Shown: positions 622 through 58,961 of the stretch, in pieces
Numbering within the stretch: position 1 is the stretch's first letter
Layout of the letters: each line of letters begins with the position of its first letter
Source: Aquimarina megaterium XH134
Lineage (GTDB): Bacteria; Bacteroidota; Bacteroidia; Flavobacteriales; Flavobacteriaceae
NCBI RefSeq assembly: GCF_000520975.1
Contig: NZ_JACB01000031.1
Location: 62,001 to 126,000, forward strand
Reading direction: 5' to 3'
Length of the DNA stretch: 64,000 nt
Notes under the pieces: generated by a model
What the model saw: only the letters and a program-made list of their open reading frames with translations
What the model was told of the DNA's origin: nothing
Database searches by the model: none
Position numbers and translations under genes: made by a program

Positions 622-837
622 CTATATACAGCAACCATTTGATGGGTGATAAGAGCACCCAGGAATATAAGTAGCACCACAACTAGGATTATTTAATGCA
701 ACATGAGAAGTTGTACAGCATCGTAGTGCAGGGTTACAACATTTTCGAAGTACTGGAATACGACCACCGTTTATTCCTTTTTGTTCACTCTTTTTAAGGC
801 TTTTTGTTCCTTCTAAATCTAAGATGGTTTTTAACAT
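622..837 (-). CDS. Double-glycine peptide precursor, 25-residue leader, Cys-rich core
   Basis: A 71-residue product. The leader has the pattern MLKTILDLEG...EQKGINGG and ends in a Gly-Gly at residues 24-25, the classic cleavage point for exported peptides. The predicted core of 46 residues has eight cysteines, including three CC pairs, and little charge. The leader pattern (IL-x-L-x-G...Q-K-x-I-x-GG) matches the precursors at 53268 and 58536, which also have 25-residue leaders. Such precursors are usually processed and exported by a peptidase-containing ABC transporter, but none is encoded in this window. The core could be a bacteriocin, a signal or a modified peptide. It diverges from the precursor at 1032. 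Confidence 0.85.
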   Translation of the reverse strand: MLKTILDLEGTKSLKKSEQKGINGGRIPVLRKCCNPALRCCTTSHVALNNPSCGATYIPGCSYHPSNGCCI

Positions 838-45048: not shown

Positions 45049-45213
45049 ATGAAAAAATCAATTTTAAATTTAGGAAAAGTTATAAATAAAGCTAAACAAA
45101 AAACTATTAATGGTGGAAAGATGGAAGCCTCTTGCGAAGAATTAGGGTGGAACGAATCAACTTGTAAATATGGATCATCGGCTTCTGATATCAATTATCT
45201 TAAATGTTGTTAA
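45049..45213 (+). CDS. Double-glycine precursor, 23-residue leader (pair 1, first)
   Basis: A 54-residue precursor beginning MKKSILNLGKVINKAKQK and reaching Gly-Gly at 22-23. The core of 31 residues has four Cys, including a terminal CC. The leader is nearly the same as that of the next gene 18 bases downstream and of the pair at 45895 and 46110, while the core is unrelated. It is too short for most gene finders, but the leader similarity and the element at 44984 support it. Confidence 0.85.
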   Translation: MKKSILNLGKVINKAKQKTINGGKMEASCEELGWNESTCKYGSSASDINYLKCC

Positions 45214-45231
45214 TTATTAAATCATTCTAAA

Positions 45232-45396
45232 ATGAAAAAATCAATTTTGAATTTAGGAAAAGCTTTAAGTAAAGCAGAACAAAAATCAATTAACGGAGGT
45301 ATTGCCCCATATTTATGTACTCTAGGAGATCCATGTTATATTTTTATGGGACCAATATGTACAGACGTATGTATGCATGAACCTGGAGATAGGTAG
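45232..45396 (+). CDS. Double-glycine precursor, 23-residue leader (pair 1, second)
   Basis: A 54-residue precursor beginning MKKSILNLGKALSKAEQK, with Gly-Gly at 22-23. The core IAPYLCTLGDPCYIFMG continues to four Cys in total and ends in PGDR. It follows the first gene after 18 bases without another upstream element, so the two share a transcript. A terminator lies about 90 bases later. Confidence 0.85.
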   Translation: MKKSILNLGKALSKAEQKSINGGIAPYLCTLGDPCYIFMGPICTDVCMHEPGDR

Positions 45397-45829
45397 AATG
45401 TATAATTAATTCTACAATTATATGTTTAAAAGTAAACAACCATTGTTTTAAAGTTCATATTACTGTAGGTTATTGATAACTTGGCTGCAGTTGCTTTTTA
45501 TTAAAAAGCAACTCAGCTTTTTTTCAAGAAAGTACTAAAGTTTTTCTAAGTATGTGATAAAAAGTTATATGTAAATATAAATTACTTTTTTTCAATAAGA
45601 TATATTATATTAGTTGTGTTTTATTACCCCAACCCCTCAACCTAACTTTGGATAAACAGAGGGCTAGAATCCATTTTGATATAGTGTTGTTAATAGTGGG
45701 TTTACTCTTTTTTATTACGGATTTGGAAGAAAATAATCGGTTACTATTGTTTTATTCAAAATATAAAAATATAAAATGCTTTTTATGGCTTTTGTATTGT
45801 TTGAATTAGGAATAATGTTTTTTATACAG
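45397..45829. other. 433-base spacer between peptide pairs
   Basis: It contains the terminator of pair 1 and AT-rich sequence. It precedes the second copy of the shared element. No coding region was recognised. Confidence 0.45.
45484..45524 (+). terminator. Terminator of peptide pair 1
   Basis: GCTG, a one-base bulge and AGTTGCTTTTT pair with AAAAAGCAACT and CAGC, followed by seven T. Confidence 0.9.
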
Positions 45830-45866
45830 AATAGACACAAACGATGAGTGTCTTAAAATGTTTGTC
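45830..45866 (+). promoter_or_regulatory. Shared upstream element of peptide genes, copy 2
   Basis: AGACAC and GTGTCT around a 9-base loop, then TTAAAATGTTT. The spacing from the end of this block to the ATG at 45895 is 31 bases, the same as in copy 1. Confidence 0.75.
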
Positions 45867-45894
45867 GTAAAAAAATAATCTTAAAACCTATATC

Positions 45895-46071
45895 ATGAAA
45901 AATCACATTTTAAACTTGGGTAAAATTTTAACCAAAACGCAACAAAAACAAATTAATGGAGGTAGATGTCAAAATGCATTTCAATGTTGGGAATGGGCTA
46001 ATTTTTTGGGACCAGAAGATGCGTATGCATGTATTGATGGAAATTGCGGACTTAATCCAGGTCCACTTTAA
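45895..46071 (+). CDS. Double-glycine precursor, 23-residue leader (pair 2, first)
   Basis: A 58-residue precursor beginning MKNHILNLGKILTKTQQK with Gly-Gly at 22-23. The core RCQNAFQCWEWANFLGP has Trp and ends in GLNPGPL, with four Cys overall. Its leader and the bases before its ATG are almost identical to those of the next gene, but the cores differ completely, which implies duplication followed by core replacement or fast divergence. Confidence 0.85.
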   Translation: MKNHILNLGKILTKTQQKQINGGRCQNAFQCWEWANFLGPEDAYACIDGNCGLNPGPL

Positions 46072-46109
46072 TTGCTAGGAGTATAAAAAGTAATCTTAAA
46101 ACTTATATT

Positions 46110-46304
46110 ATGAAAAATCACATTTTAAACTTAGGTAAAATTTTAACCAAAACACAACAAAAACAAATTAATGGAGGAGGGGGACATCCAGCATGCTATT
46201 CTCATCAGGATTGCCCTGGATCAATGGGGTGTTGTAGACCTGGAGGTAGCGGATTAGGGCTGTGTATGGTGTTTGAGCAGTATATAAAATATTGCAATAT
46301 ATAA
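46110..46304 (+). CDS. Double-glycine precursor, 23-residue leader (pair 2, second)
   Basis: A 64-residue precursor with the same 23-residue leader as the gene at 45895, then a Gly-rich core (GGHPACYSHQDCPGSMGCC...) with six Cys. It starts 38 bases after the first gene; the 5' segment AATCTTAAAAC is also repeated. A terminator follows at 46372. Confidence 0.87.
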   Translation: MKNHILNLGKILTKTQQKQINGGGGHPACYSHQDCPGSMGCCRPGGSGLGLCMVFEQYIKYCNI

Positions 46305-52989: not shown

Positions 52990-53196
52990 TTATTGGCAAG
53001 CTACCTGAATAGATTGGCATAATACTTCTGTAGGCCCACATTCTGATGTTTTCACAACACAATCTTTTGAAAAACACGGAAGTGCTGCAGAACAAGCATT
53101 AGCACTAAGTCCGGTTCCTCCTGTAATAGTAGTGCTGTTGAGTCTTGAAATCGCCATTTTGTTTAAGGATAAGCTTTTTAACTTTTTTTTCTTCAT
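52990..53196 (-). CDS. Double-glycine precursor with lanthipeptide-like leader, Cys-rich core
   Basis: The ATG at 53196 starts a 68-residue product, MKKKKLKSLSLNKMAISRL..., with Gly-Gly at 26-27. The longer in-frame ATG at 53247 is unlikely because the shared upstream element ends 31 bases before 53196. The leader has the LxLNKxxI pattern of the peptide at 1032 and the same length, 27. The core of 41 residues has six Cys plus several Ser and Thr that could be dehydrated (family-based inference). No modifying enzyme is adjacent. Confidence 0.82.
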   Translation of the reverse strand: MKKKKLKSLSLNKMAISRLNSTTITGGTGLSANACSAALPCFSKDCVVKTSECGPTEVLCQSIQVACQ

Positions 53197-53267: not shown

Positions 53268-53453
53268 CTAATTGGTTGCATCTATAGGGTCGCAAATTGG
53301 TAAACCTTGTGTGTTACAGTAGAAAGGAGCGCCTGCAAAACAACCTCTTGGGAAAAATATAGGGCACTCGGGTAATACTCCTCCTTTAATTCGTTTTTGC
53401 TGAATTTTGCTTAGATAATTAGCTCCTTTAATACTTAAAATGTTTTTCGACAT
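53268..53453 (-). CDS. Double-glycine precursor, 25-residue leader
   Basis: A 61-residue precursor beginning MSKNILSIKGANYLSKIQQK, with Gly-Gly at 24-25. The core VLPECPIFFPRGCFAGAPFY has Cys, Pro and aromatics and ends in DPIDATN. It has the 25-residue leader type also seen at 622 and 58536. No clear copy of the shared element lies before it. Confidence 0.83.
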   Translation of the reverse strand: MSKNILSIKGANYLSKIQQKRIKGGVLPECPIFFPRGCFAGAPFYCNTQGLPICDPIDATN

Positions 53454-53690
53454 GATGTTGGTTTTTAATAATTAATAATTTCAGATGATATCTAGTTGAT
53501 ATTGAAAAACAAATACGCTCTATGTCATTTATGAAATGATTAGATTAATACTTGTTTTTATAATGTTCAGGAAAAAAAGAATTGTTACTATAGAAAAATC
53601 AAAAAAAATAGCTTTAGAGAATAAAAAGAGATAATTCTTTTATTTTTAAAGGGAAAAGAAAATAAGTAGAGACAAGTAGTTTTGAACTTC

Positions 53691-56435
53691 TTAAGGCGTT
53701 ACTGTAGCCTTTTGTTTATGTCTTCTATATCTAAAAAATAAGAGTAATACTATAATTGTTGTTATTATAATTGTACTATATATGAGAAGATTGTAATTGG
53801 ATTTTGGAACTAAAGTTCCTGTATCACCTATAAGCACCAATGAAGCCCAATAGTAAGGAGATGCGTCAGCATCAGAATTGGATTTCAAATAATTTAGTTT
53901 AGCAATTCGAAGTGCTTGAGACTTTGTTTTACCGTTGCTTAAATTCTTATAAAAATCAGAAGTTATAGTAGCCGTTGATTTATCATTGGTGTTCCAAAGA
54001 GAAGGAATCACAGTATTAGCTCCTGATTTAAAGAATTCTCTAGCTAAACTCATAAGACCTTCGCCACGATTTAATTTTCCTAAAGAAGTATTACAAGCAC
54101 TTAGGATTACCAATTCGGCATTATTTTTTATGGTAGTAAGCTCGTTTGCTATTAGTTTATTGTCATAAAACGCAATCCAAGGAGCGATTGAATCTGAAGC
54201 ATCTGCATGAGTTGCCAAATGTAGAATTTTATATTTATTAGCTTCTTTGATAAAGTTTTTCTTTGTAGCATTTTCTTTAGTATACAATGAACCATCATAA
54301 TATGTGTTTGCAGTATTAATTTCTTCATCACTACTGTATAAAGTAGTCAGGTTATTCGAGAAATTAATAGGAGCGATCCCTAAAAAATCTTGAGTAGAAG
54401 TTCTCGCAATAGATTTATTTTCTTTTAGGAAAGACAATGAATATGCATAATTAATTTCTGACTCTTCTATGAGGTAAGTTCCCAATTCAATGTCGGTAAC
54501 CAGAGCTTCAAAAGGGATAAGGCTTATGTTGTGATCTGCAATGATGGTGACCTTTTTGTTTTTTAACTCTTTTCTGATATTAGAGGATATAAGAGTGTTG
54601 TATAGTAGGTGTGAAACTTCTCTATACCTACGAATATCATCCCATGTTTTAAATGGTTTTTTTAATTTTTTTCTTAAATCATATATATTATCCGTTAATT
54701 GATTGATGTTCTCAATTTTGAAAACTTTTTTATGTTTATTAGATAAAACCATCCCATAGGCATTAGGTAGTGCTCCTAAAACTTCTTCTGCCATAGTATA
54801 ATTGATGATTATTTGATTATCTTTTAATTTTATATCCGATAGAGAAATCATTTTAGGGATTGTATACGAAGAAAAATACTTGGGGTAGGTATATGAGAGA
54901 GAGTCTTTATAGTGATATAATTCACTTTTTTTGGATAAAATAATTGCAGAGAGAGAATCTTTTTGTGTCTTAGAAGAGTTCTTGAACTGATTTTGAAATT
55001 TAACAATTTCATTCTCCAATTTTTTTTCTTGTTCTAAAACCTCCTCAGGGATACTAATTTTCTTTTTAGTAATGTCTTGTATTAATAGTAAAGCTTTATT
55101 TTTTTCCATAAAATAGAATGCAGCATCCTTATTGTTAGAATTAATGCATGCTTCTAATCCTAAAATATAAACCTCTGAGATCAAACTTCTCCAAAATAAT
55201 TTGGATTTATAGGATAGGTTTTCCTTCATGATAATATCAATAAGTAGATCGCTGGTCATAACTGTTTTAATAGCAGATAAATGACTAGACGAATCCTTTT
55301 CTTTTTTACCATGTTCTAGATATGCTTGAGTTTTTCTTTTTAATAACTCAAGAAGAGTGGCCTTATCATTTATATGAGCCAGATGCTCTTTTTTAGGTAG
55401 CCAATCTGTATTAGGGATGTCGACATTAAAATAGTAAGAGAATGCTTTCCTATACTGTTCTTGTGCGACGTTATATTCTTCTTTAGTAAAAGCAGATATG
55501 CCTAATCCCATATAAATTTTAGGAATCAAGTAGTTTACATTTTTAGAATAAGATAAAGATTGTTTGAAATGCTCTTCTGCTATTGTATTGTCAGAGTTGA
55601 TATTTGAGATACCCAAGTTATAATGAATTTGCCCCAAATTTCTGTCGACTCCCATTTTTTCTGCTATTTCTAGAGCTTTTTCGAAGTATTCGATAGCCTT
55701 ATTATGATCTTTAATTGCTTCTTTATGGTACAAGCCTAGATTGTTGTATATGGCATAGAGATCGCGTGAATTAGGTTTTTCTAAGGTATGTATCAAAGAA
55801 TCTGCAATTAGTAAATGGCTAACAACCTTTTGATTGCTTTTTCGATTCCGAATATTTCTATACGATACAGCAATGTTGATGTGATTCGAAATAATATATG
55901 CTTTCTGTTTTTTTGATTCAAAATCTACAAATGCTTGAAGTTGATTTTCTACTGCCTGATATAAATCCCCTATTTTACCATAGCATTCTCCGATTAATGC
56001 ATAGGCTTTTCCATTAAAGAAATCAGAACCCTTTACTTCAATCATTTTTCTGAAATAACGAATTGCTATAGTGTAGTTCTCTTTTCGCCTATTAAAATTT
56101 GCGTAATTGTAATAACTTCTTTTTAATAACTCTGGATTAAAAGGAGTTGCTTTTTCTCTCGCTAGATATGCTATTTTTGCAATTTCTATTGCCTTGTCCC
56201 ACTTTTTTTCTTTGTGTATCCATTTGGCTAATTGATGCGCGTCAAATCCTAGTTGGGTAAGATTATTACTTTTTTTATAGCTATCCAATAGTGTATTATA
56301 ACTATTCAGTTTTTCATAATTACTACCAGGTAATTTAGATATAGAATCAAGACTAAAAGATATTTCCTGACCTCTGCTAGAAAAAGTCAGGAAATAAGAT
56401 ATACAGAAAAATAAAATTACTACATATTTCCTCAT
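53691..56435 (-). CDS. Periplasmic TPR-CHAT caspase-like protease
   Basis: A 914-residue protein with a signal peptide (about 1-22) and many TPR repeats from about 40 to 400 (for example AIYNNLGLYHKEAIKDHNKAI and YNLGISNINSDNTIAEEHF). The CHAT domain (about 590-870) has His743 in HLATHADAS and Cys781 in LSACNTSLGKLNRGEG, the intact caspase-type dyad, and SLWNTND. A transmembrane helix near 880-900 precedes a basic cytosolic tail, so the TPR and protease domains are likely outside the cytoplasm. The lipoprotein gene lies 40 bases upstream on the same strand. Substrate unknown. Confidence 0.92.
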   Translation of the reverse strand: MRKYVVILFFCISYFLTFSSRGQEISFSLDSISKLPGSNYEKLNSYNTLLDSYKKSNNLTQLGFDAHQLAKWIHKEKKWDKAIEIAKIAYLAREKATPFNPELLKRSYYNYANFNRRKENYTIAIRYFRKMIEVKGSDFFNGKAYALIGECYGKIGDLYQAVENQLQAFVDFESKKQKAYIISNHINIAVSYRNIRNRKSNQKVVSHLLIADSLIHTLEKPNSRDLYAIYNNLGLYHKEAIKDHNKAIEYFEKALEIAEKMGVDRNLGQIHYNLGISNINSDNTIAEEHFKQSLSYSKNVNYLIPKIYMGLGISAFTKEEYNVAQEQYRKAFSYYFNVDIPNTDWLPKKEHLAHINDKATLLELLKRKTQAYLEHGKKEKDSSSHLSAIKTVMTSDLLIDIIMKENLSYKSKLFWRSLISEVYILGLEACINSNNKDAAFYFMEKNKALLLIQDITKKKISIPEEVLEQEKKLENEIVKFQNQFKNSSKTQKDSLSAIILSKKSELYHYKDSLSYTYPKYFSSYTIPKMISLSDIKLKDNQIIINYTMAEEVLGALPNAYGMVLSNKHKKVFKIENINQLTDNIYDLRKKLKKPFKTWDDIRRYREVSHLLYNTLISSNIRKELKNKKVTIIADHNISLIPFEALVTDIELGTYLIEESEINYAYSLSFLKENKSIARTSTQDFLGIAPINFSNNLTTLYSSDEEINTANTYYDGSLYTKENATKKNFIKEANKYKILHLATHADASDSIAPWIAFYDNKLIANELTTIKNNAELVILSACNTSLGKLNRGEGLMSLAREFFKSGANTVIPSLWNTNDKSTATITSDFYKNLSNGKTKSQALRIAKLNYLKSNSDADASPYYWASLVLIGDTGTLVPKSNYNLLIYSTIIITTIIVLLLFFRYRRHKQKATVTP

Positions 56436-56475
56436 GCTATTATATCGCTAGTATGAGGTAAAAATAAAAATAAAA

Positions 56476-56982
56476 TTATTTATTTGGTGTTTTAGGATTG
56501 GTGTTGATTGATCTTGGTAAGATTAAATCAAGGTTACATAAATTATTATAATTAGTAGTGTCGTTGTTATCATATACGGGATTCTCAGAAATATCAGGTG
56601 GTGGTGGGGCACCTCCTTCACCGATGGTAGCACTGCTTTCGGCATCAAGGACCGCTTCGTTTTCGTTTTTTGGAGGAGAAGGAGCCTGATCACAAGGAAT
56701 ATACCATATATCAATAGATGGGCAATCGGTTTCGGCTACTAATACATATCTAAACCAATGCTTTCTCCCAATACTAGCAAATTCCCGTTTGTAATTATTG
56801 CTTCTCGAAACCCCATAACGTACATAAATTTTGTTACTACAAAATTCTATTTCAGGACCTCCTGTTGTTAATTTGTCTATAATAACATCTTCTTGTTTTT
56901 CTAGAGGTAATTCATCTTTAGAGCAGCTTTGTATCCCAATTACAAAAACTACTGCTAAGCATAATAATGCGATTTTTTTCAT
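56476..56982 (-). CDS. Lipoprotein encoded upstream of the CHAT protease
   Basis: The ATG at 56982 gives a 168-residue protein, MKKIALLCLAVVFVIGIQSC, with lipobox IQSC at Cys20. The mature part has Cys pairs (EFCSNKIYVRYGVSRSNN, AETDCPSIDIWYIPCDQ), a Pro-rich region and an Asn-rich end. I do not recognise the family. A -7 box at 57047 on the minus strand supports this start and rules out the longer reading to 57099. It is probably co-transcribed with the CHAT gene and may deliver a ligand or receptor to it. Confidence 0.8.
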   Translation of the reverse strand: MKKIALLCLAVVFVIGIQSCSKDELPLEKQEDVIIDKLTTGGPEIEFCSNKIYVRYGVSRSNNYKREFASIGRKHWFRYVLVAETDCPSIDIWYIPCDQAPSPPKNENEAVLDAESSATIGEGGAPPPPDISENPVYDNNDTTNYNNLCNLDLILPRSINTNPKTPNK

Positions 56983-57046
56983 TCTTAATGTTTTTTGTTT
57001 ACTAAATTTATTAGTATGTTTCCTCAATATAACTTTTGTTACCATG

Positions 57047-57054
57047 CAAAAGTA
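57047..57054 (-). promoter_or_regulatory. -7 box for the lipoprotein-CHAT operon
   Basis: On the minus strand TACTTTTG matches TAnnTTTG, 65 bases before the ATG at 56982. It lies five bases before the possible sigma factor start at 57059 on the other strand. Confidence 0.55.
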
Positions 57055-57058
57055 AAAA

Positions 57059-57643
57059 ATGTTAAATACGTTTTTGATGCCCAAAGAAGAAACAAACATT
57101 TTAAAACAATTAGCTGATGGAAATGAGATTGTTATACAGGGATTGTATACAGCTGTTTTTCCTAAAGTTGTAAGTTTTATTCTAAAAAATAAAGGAGATC
57201 GAGCAGATGCAGAAGATATTTTTCAAAAAGCATTGTTACAATTAATAGCAAGATATAAAGTAAAAAGCTTTATTATAGAATCCTCTTTTGAGGCTTATCT
57301 TTTTACAGTTTGCAAGAATTTGTGGAGAAGAGAGTTAAATAAAGAAAAAAAGAGGGTAACAAATGATTCCATAGCCGAACTATCTAGAGAAGAAGATGAT
57401 ATGACTATGGCTGCTTTGGAACAAGAAAAATGGGAGTTGTTTCAGGAAAAACTAAATGAAATATCCGATAATTGTAAACAATTACTTCAATTATTTTTTC
57501 AAAAAACCCCTTATAAGAAAATTGTACAAAAACTAGGGTATAGTTCTGATAATGTGGTGAGACAACGTATATTTAATTGCAAATCTCAACTTGCCAAATT
57601 GATCAAGAAAGATCCACGGTATAATGATATAAAAGAATTATGA
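57059..57643 (+). CDS. ECF-type sigma-70 factor
   Basis: A 194-residue sigma factor. Region 2 has YTAVFPKVVSFILKNKGDRADAEDIFQKALLQL and FEAYLFTVCKNLWRRELNK; region 4 has CKQLLQLFFQKTPYKKIVQKLGY and IFNCKSQL. There is no region 1.1 or 3, as for ECF factors. A second ATG at 57077 is an equally good start. Its stop overlaps the next gene by four bases. It diverges from the lipoprotein and CHAT operon. Confidence 0.92.
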   Translation: MLNTFLMPKEETNILKQLADGNEIVIQGLYTAVFPKVVSFILKNKGDRADAEDIFQKALLQLIARYKVKSFIIESSFEAYLFTVCKNLWRRELNKEKKRVTNDSIAELSREEDDMTMAALEQEKWELFQEKLNEISDNCKQLLQLFFQKTPYKKIVQKLGYSSDNVVRQRIFNCKSQLAKLIKKDPRYNDIKEL

Positions 57644-58434
57644 ATAACTCTTTGTTAGAAATAGATAAATATTTAGATGGGGAGATGTCTGACATAGAAA
57701 AACAGACGTTTGAAACAAAGATTGATTCTGATCCTTTGCTAGCCAGGGAATTAAAATTTCAGCAAGAAATGCGTGTTATTTATAATAATCAAAAATGGTT
57801 AGAAGGAGATAAAAAAGTATTAGAAAAAAAGAAATCACAGCAAATGCTATCTTTTTTTAAAAGTGAGGAGGCTAATATTTTAAAGAATACAATTGAAGAA
57901 GTAGTATCACAAAATAGATCCAATTCTGGAAATAGAAATTCGTTATTCTTAAGTATAGCTGCTACCGTAGCTATTTTAATTGCCATTTCGGTATTCTTAT
58001 TTAAAAACCCTTCTTATCAAGATTTATATACAGACTATATCAATATTGACAATATACCTTCTTTGGTTTCTAGAGGAGATACTAATACACTACTTGAAGA
58101 AGCACAATTAGAATTTGAAAATAAAAAATATAAGGAAGCAATTCGTAAGTTTAAAGAATATCAACAAAATGAGACATCGATCAACCCGTTAACATATATT
58201 TATTTGGGGGTTTCATATCTAGAATTACATCAATATGATAATGCATTACTTCAGTTTGAGCAATTGTCAAAATCTAACACATTACAAAGTAAGAAAGCAG
58301 ATTGGTATAAAGTAATGGTCTTTTTGAAACAAAAGGATAAAAACAAACTATTAGAAACTTTACAATATATAATTGCAGATAAAAACAATTATAATTTTAA
58401 CGAAGCGCAGCAACTTTTGAAAGAGATTGATTGA
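57640..58434 (+). CDS. Putative anti-sigma protein with periplasmic TPR region
   Basis: A 264-residue protein whose ATG overlaps the sigma factor stop (ATGA), so coupled. Residues 1-45 (LEIDKYLDGEMSDIEKQTFE) resemble the N-terminal anti-sigma domain without the zinc Cys. A transmembrane helix (SIAATVAILIAISVFLF, about 104-120) follows, then TPR-like repeats (YKEAIRKFKEYQ and TYIYLGVSYLELHQYDNAL). The topology is cytoplasmic N-terminus and periplasmic TPR. It would hold the sigma factor until an outside signal, possibly proteolysis, releases it (inference). Confidence 0.82.
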   Translation: MNNSLLEIDKYLDGEMSDIEKQTFETKIDSDPLLARELKFQQEMRVIYNNQKWLEGDKKVLEKKKSQQMLSFFKSEEANILKNTIEEVVSQNRSNSGNRNSLFLSIAATVAILIAISVFLFKNPSYQDLYTDYINIDNIPSLVSRGDTNTLLEEAQLEFENKKYKEAIRKFKEYQQNETSINPLTYIYLGVSYLELHQYDNALLQFEQLSKSNTLQSKKADWYKVMVFLKQKDKNKLLETLQYIIADKNNYNFNEAQQLLKEID

Positions 58435-58535: not shown

Positions 58536-58754
58536 TTAAGCCCAGACTCCACCTCCATTTCCATTTCCTCCACATTGCACAGCATCATATATTATAGCGG
58601 CACAATTTAGGTAATTACCATTGTTGAGTCGAGCAGTTGTACCGTTGCAACTATAAGTGCATCGAATTAGGGTAGGGCGCCCTCCTTTTACTGATTTTTG
58701 TTTGTCTTTGTTCAATTTTTGAACTCCTTCTACTTCTAAGATTTTTTTAAACAT
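58536..58754 (-). CDS. Double-glycine precursor, 25-residue leader
   Basis: A 72-residue precursor beginning MFKKILEVEGVQKLNKDKQK, with Gly-Gly at 24-25. The core has four Cys and a C-terminal Gly/Asn-rich stretch (GGNGNGGGVWA). It lies downstream of the anti-sigma gene on the opposite strand. A diverged copy of the shared element precedes it at 58788. Confidence 0.83.
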   Translation of the reverse strand: MFKKILEVEGVQKLNKDKQKSVKGGRPTLIRCTYSCNGTTARLNNGNYLNCAAIIYDAVQCGGNGNGGGVWA

Positions 58755-58819: not shown

Positions 58820-58961
58820 ATTTATTTATGTTCTTATCAGAGTTAATGTTACTCTTAATTATTTGTTAATTATTAAATTACTTGCCTTAAGAGCTTGTTT
58901 TGGATATTTAAAAAAAATATTTCTTTGTTTTATTTTTAGATTAAAACCACCTACAATTTCC

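Follow-up and report, generated by a model that had tools for sequence, protein, structure and literature searches.

Which proteins do bacterial CHAT proteases cut, and can a substrate be recognized among the genes beside one of them? We know of few of these caspase/separase-like enzymes in bacteria for which a protein target has been established. A locus in Aquimarina megaterium XH134 suggests a candidate. The window analyzed here is a stretch of 64,000 nucleotides (contig NZ_JACB01000031.1, positions 62,001 to 126,000) from the 6.2 Mb genome of this organism (G000). On its minus strand lie a lipoprotein gene and the gene for a 914-aa protein combining tetratricopeptide repeats (TPR) with a CHAT domain. 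Divergent from them, on the plus strand, are genes for an extracytoplasmic function (ECF) sigma factor and an overlapping 264-aa single-pass protein. A preliminary description made from the letters alone had placed these four genes, with the lipoprotein inside the CHAT operon, and a check of the open reading frames (ORFs) together with matches to PF12770 and TIGR02937 confirms the coordinates of all four and the CHAT and ECF sigma assignments (Table 1). The nearest named relative for the locus is Aquimarina atlantica, in which the CHAT protein is 93% identical.

By comparison of genomes the four genes form a conserved unit. On balance, and with modest confidence, we favor the reading that this unit is a split-component envelope signalling switch, in which the CHAT protein would act as the first-site protease for its own anti-sigma protein, with feedback and a peptide output. 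A candidate CHAT substrate would then be encoded next to its protease, with a transcriptional read-out, in a group that includes cultured marine Flavobacteriaceae.

Conservation of the sigma-CHAT unit

Conservation was examined in 36 genomes: that of the window, 20 from the same genus and 15 from the same order. A search with PF12770 gave 139 CHAT matches, and the best 150 matches to the window sigma protein were considered. All 34 sigma relatives scoring at least 150 bits are divergent to a CHAT gene within 8 kb. At lower scores a CHAT gene within 8 kb accompanies 8 of 12 sigma factors (110–150 bits), 25 of 43 (85–110 bits), 2 of 15 (70–85 bits), neither of two (60–70 bits) and 18 of 44 (30–60 bits). 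Counted from the protease side, at least 91 of the 139 CHATs have a sigma gene within 8 kb, a lower bound because sigma matches were limited to the best 150. The genome of the window itself encodes nine CHATs, six of them with an adjoining sigma/anti-sigma pair.

Named genomes searched by CHAT alone yielded 78 loci, 72 with a sigma gene, which is divergent in 71. Three of the six sigma-less loci are at contig ends (L184, L185, L201), a fourth (L182) shows just a 62-aa piece of a sigma gene product, and no sigma gene was found in the fetched flank of L149 or L214. Genera carrying both genes include Lacinutrix, Psychroserpens, Tenacibaculum, Kordia, Dokdonia and Flavobacterium, and the pair is also present in two metagenome-assembled genomes of Chitinophagales. 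From a 395-genome sample of the class we examined 20 sigma matches outside the genus, the top 14 and six picked from further down the list. A CHAT gene is nearby for 14 of the 20, and for 11 of the best 13, the other two being on contigs of 7.9 and 3.1 kb. The preliminary description would have lost its basis had the sigma and CHAT operons failed to co-occur in relatives; they do co-occur (34/34 and 72/78).

The detailed comparisons below draw on 84 loci, that is, 87 sigma-CHAT pairs (86 and the window) less three that were not fetched; repeat fetches of the same stretches (L028, L029) are excluded from the counts. An anti-sigma-like partner bearing a transmembrane segment is found in 80 of the 84. 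At sigma loci lacking CHAT such a protein adjoins the sigma gene in only 4 of 23 examined (of 35), where partners were taken as ORFs of at least 120 aa within 400 bases.

The three partners have also diverged together. Over 155 loci (154 distinct, the repeat L121/L199 having been kept) the correlations between the pairwise distances of the three proteins are 0.81–0.85, and none of 1000 permutations gave values as high. Six of the 78 named loci (L139, L141, L145, L151, L153, L156) repeat Aquimarina loci of the 84 and were excluded from this analysis. Within the genus (82 loci from 19 genomes) the correlation is 0.86 for CHAT with anti-sigma and 0.81 for CHAT with sigma. When paralogous partners are swapped within genomes it falls to about 0.03 (maximum 0.155), and each CHAT thus stays with its own sigma and anti-sigma.

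The encoded proteins and their closest known relatives

The 914-aa protein matches PF12770 with 179 bits against a cut-off of 24, and TPR repeats are also matched. It consists of a signal peptide, a helical TPR region (about residues 27–520), the CHAT domain (606–871), a transmembrane segment (883–901) and a basic cytosolic tail. The signal peptide was assigned by inspection, and Gln23 is nearly invariant. From the signal peptide, the C-terminal transmembrane segment and the basic tail, both the TPR and the CHAT domains are predicted to be periplasmic, as the preliminary description had supposed and on which its proposal depended. Simple hydropathy applied to uncurated start codons finds the C-terminal segment at 83 of the 84 loci and an N-terminal hydrophobic stretch at 65. 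The dyad residues that had been described as intact, His743 and Cys781, are indeed His and Cys and do not vary among the sigma-linked CHATs (Table 1). In a wider set of 93 rows the dyad is present in 91, and the other two have gaps there because their ORFs are truncated. There is no dead CHAT among the aligned full-length copies, and catalysis therefore appears to be kept by selection.

The sigma factor scores 74.5 bits against TIGR02937, for which the cut-off is 42.9; Pfam matched its region 2 and did not match region 4. Comparison with relatives places the likely true start of the sigma gene inside its ORF, and the likely lipoprotein start at 56982 (Table 1). The adjoining gene overlaps that of sigma by 4 bases and encodes, in order, a cytosolic helical N-terminus, a single predicted transmembrane segment (102–120), a periplasmic linker with a conserved basic residue at position 145 (K or R in 146 of 155 loci) and a TPR domain (150–264). 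In its AlphaFold2 model (pLDDT 81) the N-terminus is helical and the C-terminus adopts a TPR fold, and the TPR domain of YbgF is the best structural match. The divergent operon of a sigma factor and a coupled single-pass protein with a periplasmic TPR domain is thus as first described. At the N-terminus, first described as anti-sigma-like, the model is helical, and no anti-sigma family was matched in Pfam or NCBIfam. We therefore call the protein an anti-sigma on the strength of its coupling to the sigma gene, its topology and its co-divergence. By prediction the protein has the features of a transmembrane anti-sigma factor, namely a gene coupled to that of sigma and one transmembrane segment that would leave the N-terminus in the cytosol and the C-terminus in the periplasm.

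Of the 66 divergent loci of the genus set, 50 have a gene separating sigma from CHAT, as do 71 of 72 named loci. In 48 rows, representing 47 distinct relatives because L121/L199 is again counted twice, it encodes a lipoprotein that is a subtilisin (S8, C-terminal domain), with S8-lipoprotein profile scores of at least 246 bits and PF00082 in the two tested. The Asp, His and Ser of the active site and the oxyanion Asn are present in all 48 rows. The window lipoprotein, with a lipobox (IQSC) assigned by eye that a lipobox pattern scan did not flag, has no S8 catalytic domain and consists of the short N-terminal part only. Its match to the S8-lipoprotein profile is weak (E 4e-4, profile positions 2–72), and other short lipoproteins matching the profile likewise align to its first part only. 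Kinship with the subtilisin lipoproteins is likely and falls short of proof, since the window match is weak and takes in the signal peptide. A resemblance of such lipoproteins to inhibitor I9, noted by eye, was dropped when Pfam found none in the three tested. In some classes of locus there is no intervening gene, or a different lipoprotein of 345 aa.

The AlphaFold2 model of the CHAT protein (pLDDT 87.9, pTM 0.83) has as its best match in the PDB a Csx29-type chain (8eey_B) of the Cas7-11/Csx29/Csx30 complex (Z 30.8, 523 residues, root-mean-square deviation 5.7), and shares the TPR-CHAT fold of Craspase (type III-E) over most of its length. Separase is next among the structural matches, with Z up to 27. 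DdvA (8rw5, 8rot), at Z of about 24, scores similarly to TPR-only chains, but its alignment runs through the CHAT part. A profile of the CHAT domain searched against PDB sequences up to E 10 found only DdvA and Craspase TPR-CHAT, DdvA being the better of the two. That Csx29 is the best match and that DdvA is in the same list strengthen the analogy with sigma factors released by proteases.

The structure study of DdvA reportedly proposed a caspase-like autoproteolysis preceding site-2 cleavage. The active site of DdvA is reported to be incomplete. In the CHAT-profile alignment the His and Cys of DdvA are aligned and the GEG motif is not, whereas the window CHAT keeps all three. DdvA is named as a transmembrane anti-sigma factor in the titles of PDB entries 8rot and 8rw5, and DdvS is described as controlling an antiphage island in Myxococcus xanthus (PMC12288465). 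Both systems pair an ECF sigma factor with a transmembrane anti-sigma and a TPR-CHAT module. However, in DdvA the anti-sigma, transmembrane and TPR-CHAT parts are one chain, while in the window they are divided between two proteins (914 and 264 aa) accompanied by a lipoprotein. Functions that are fused in DdvA would thus be separate here, and the window locus looks like a split variant of DdvA in which the catalytic residues are kept.

In Craspase, Csx29 is described as cleaving Csx30, an inhibitor of an ECF sigma factor, with cleavage relieving the inhibition (PMC10028731). The window locus has the same kinds of parts, a TPR-CHAT protease, a presumed inhibitor and an ECF sigma factor. However, Csx29 works in a complex with Cas7-11 and has RNA as its trigger, whereas the window CHAT is predicted to be exported and membrane-anchored and its presumed inhibitor is a single-pass membrane protein. 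Cas7-11 did not turn up in PADLOC scans of the four locus proteins and ten neighbours, and no search was aimed at Cas7-11 or Csx30. A computational study proposes joint action for neighbourhoods of EACC2 caspases, ECF sigma factors and TPR (DUF1822) proteins (PMC8195603). These too combine a caspase-family protease, an ECF sigma factor and a TPR protein, but other families are named, and the main text of that study, as far as it was available to us, mentions neither CHAT nor an anti-sigma.

The preliminary description had not recognized the arrangement as one already described. Among the papers listed in literature searches none describes it, as judged by titles and the openings of abstracts, a coverage that leaves out most subscription journals, and a description may exist elsewhere. 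The arrangement does have partial precedents, DdvA/DdvS and Craspase being built from comparable components.

A proposed signalling switch and its alternatives

In regulated proteolysis of the RseA/DegS/RseP and RsiW types, a periplasmic first cut is followed by cleavage by a site-2 protease and release of the sigma factor. The logic that we propose for the window locus is identical, except that a cysteine protease of the caspase fold would make the first cut, whereas DegS is a serine protease. Both types are cited in PMC10028731. The sigma factor would be bound by the co-encoded single-pass anti-sigma and held at the inner membrane. An envelope cue would be sensed by the TPR array of CHAT, by the lipoprotein (a subtilisin in many relatives) or by both, rendering the periplasmic CHAT active; the nature of this cue and the membrane side that the lipoprotein faces are matters that we infer. 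CHAT would then cut the periplasmic linker or TPR part of its cognate anti-sigma, and an RseP-type site-2 protease of the cell would complete the cleavage and free the sigma factor. The genome encodes one clear M50 site-2 protease (PF02163, 165 bits), and a second, weak match has an internal stop. Free sigma may transcribe the lipoprotein-CHAT operon, as positive feedback, and adjoining genes for peptides with GG leaders.

The last step is suggested by a promoter-like element, RGTAACA-N12..15-GAAC/GAAAC, found before 13 of 35 CHAT operons, 6 of 40 GG peptides and none of 35 sigma genes. Among 223 other genes it precedes five, every one of which lies next to CHAT within these islands. The element resembles an ECF promoter and may be the one read by the window sigma factor. 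As it was derived from these very promoters, peptides at a distance are the only fair control. In the genome of the window a slightly wider form occurs no more than 200 bases upstream of each of the two profile-detected peptides beside the locus (two of four GG peptides near sigma-CHAT loci). It precedes none of the 58 GG peptides located elsewhere in the genome, one of which has the first half only. With the element before the CHAT operon and the two window peptides, and before none of the distant ones, these peptides look like products of the regulon. The preliminary description, which correctly placed peptide precursors on both sides of the locus (GG-leader ORFs flank it, and a lanthipeptide-like ORF lies beyond one of them), had left open whether they are ligands or products. 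The shared element favors products over ligands.

The chief alternative, which we consider less likely, makes CHAT an output. The sigma factor would be freed by another first-site protease, for example the subtilisin lipoprotein where there is one or a housekeeping enzyme, and CHAT would be a sigma-made effector that processes exported peptides or envelope proteins. This would explain the position of the element before the CHAT operon, as expected of a regulon member; 47 distinct relatives carry an S8 protease of their own; and a LanC gene lies beside the locus in two of four window-clade genomes tested (in G013 and G017, not in G000 and G003). However, many loci have CHAT, sigma and anti-sigma with neither an S8 protease nor a GG peptide, and the partners co-diverge tightly. 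Moreover, two of the closest structural relatives are tied to sigma inhibition, Csx29 by acting on an inhibitor and DdvA by being an inhibitor itself.

It is improbable that CHAT influences the anti-sigma by means other than cleavage, such as docking of TPR on TPR that alters the hold on sigma, its proteolysis being aimed elsewhere. Both proteins have predicted periplasmic TPR folds, but no full-length aligned CHAT departs from the His and Cys of the dyad. Chance neighbourhood or hitch-hiking of unrelated genes is very unlikely, although 48 of the 139 CHATs lack a sigma gene within 8 kb among the matches listed and some sigma relatives lack CHAT, given that several genera share the gene order, the orientation and the pattern of divergence and that the pair occurs in other families of the class.

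Several considerations weigh against the proposed switch. Co-divergence speaks for a lasting partnership of genes, not for contact of proteins. A partial-correlation test for contact in the periplasm, comparing how CHAT tracks the periplasmic and cytosolic parts of the anti-sigma, did not discriminate, since sigma tracked the periplasmic part too. Residue 145 as the site of cutting is no more than a guess: the basic residue is also kept in all four transmembrane anti-sigmas without a neighbouring CHAT, and the position mapping to the S1 Asp of separase holds no conserved acid, being variable in the family and A822 in the window CHAT. The full element is missing at 22 of 35 divergent loci and absent before two GG peptides at a second sigma-CHAT locus of the same genome (C1). 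It also has matches in intergenic places that do not adjoin such genes (L045, L052, L079 and L030 among them) and within coding sequence, and its counts are partly circular given its derivation; we disregarded those matches that fall in the sigma gene itself, as they reflect a conserved run of codons. As for the peptides, a simple pattern finds GG leaders in the fetched flanks of only 29 of the 84 loci, and in G019 none of 19 peptide clusters is within 3 kb of a sigma-CHAT unit. We therefore rejected GG peptides as a universal partner of the unit.

If the proposed switch operates, cutting of the anti-sigma may induce further synthesis of the protease along with small secreted peptides, and some GG-leader peptides would gain a possible regulator. 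The several independent copies per genome permit tests of specificity. Craspase and DdvA/DdvS would be linked to a broader, membrane-based control of ECF sigma factors by TPR-CHAT proteins. More speculatively, and we hold this only tentatively, the unit could be a widespread non-CRISPR counterpart of Craspase at the envelope. The lipoprotein (subtilisin or remnant) and the anchored CHAT would form a two-protease relay that destroys the TPR anti-sigma, and freed sigma would yield more relay and bacteriocin- or lanthipeptide-like peptides, a circuit sensing competition or damage in several parallel copies per cell that do not cross-talk.

Peptide genes, neighbouring genes and paralogous loci

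Table 1. Features of the sigma-CHAT locus and its flanks (window coordinates)
Feature	Position	Strand	Evidence
Class I lanthipeptide-like precursor, 71 bases after the preceding peptide gene	52990..53196	-	NF038153, 19.6 bits (cut-off 22)
GG-leader peptide precursor downstream of CHAT	53268..53453	-	profile match, 4.1e-13
Promoter-like element upstream of peptide 53268-53453	53565..53589	-	motif scan
TPR-CHAT cysteine protease (predicted), 914 aa	53691..56435	-	PF12770, 1.8e-52; AlphaFold2 model; best structural match Csx29
Codon of catalytic Cys781	54093..54095	-	invariant, 84/84
Codon of catalytic His743	54207..54209	-	invariant, 84/84
Lipoprotein, first gene of CHAT operon, short form	56476..56982	-	lipobox by eye; weak S8-lipoprotein profile match
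Promoter-like element GGTAACA-N14-GAAAC before CHAT operon	57018..57043	-	motif scan
ECF sigma factor	57077..57643 (ORF opens 57059)	+	TIGR02937, 74.5 bits; relatives align from second Met
Anti-sigma-like protein, 264 aa	57640..58434	+	predicted transmembrane segment; AlphaFold2 model; 4-base overlap with sigma
GG-leader peptide precursor convergent with anti-sigma gene	58536..58754	-	profile match, 4.5e-13
Promoter-like element upstream of peptide 58536-58754	58830..58853	-	motif scan

At the cut-off used, the genome of the window encodes 62 GG peptides in 40 clusters, along with three clear C39 transporters and a weak one. Three of the 40 clusters are within 3 kb of a sigma-CHAT unit (0.38 expected), as are 6 of 27 in G005 (0.36 expected), counts that are biased in that the profile was built mostly from peptides near sigma-CHAT loci. 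GG peptides lie on the strand opposite to sigma in 51 of 53 cases, compared with 328 of 557 other ORFs of at least 150 aa; the loci are orthologous and these counts are not independent. Elsewhere in the window there is a cluster of four more GG-leader peptide genes (45049–46196, plus strand) and one more at 751–837 (minus strand). Two loci of convergent type, L031 (locus C1 of the same genome; 4316–4772) and L116 (2613–4707), have short GG-leader-like ORFs upstream of sigma in the opposite orientation, seven of them in L116. Genes for LanC-like cyclases are beside the locus in L042 (3137–4342) and L044 (3–932), in coordinates oriented with sigma on the plus strand.

The locus is flanked by genes for a RecQ-family helicase and a cyclophilin-FKBP protein. 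Membership in a catalogued defence system was rejected, as PADLOC gave the four locus proteins no family beyond generic TPR; two neighbours, a RecQ-family helicase and the ABC ATPase LptB, gave matches to helicase/ATPase models (DpdF, mad3 and others).

Tandem second CHAT genes are present at L044, L045, L065, L153 and L175, and L044 also has a second lipoprotein. CHAT proteins of about 1780–1800 aa occur in G004, G005, G006 and G017, with no sigma neighbour among the matches listed. At a paralogous locus of the window genome (L030, C76; 4425–11317) the 345-aa lipoprotein and a 663-aa PKD/DUF7619/DUF7849 protein lie between sigma and CHAT, and a gene for a retropepsin-like aspartyl protease directly follows CHAT.

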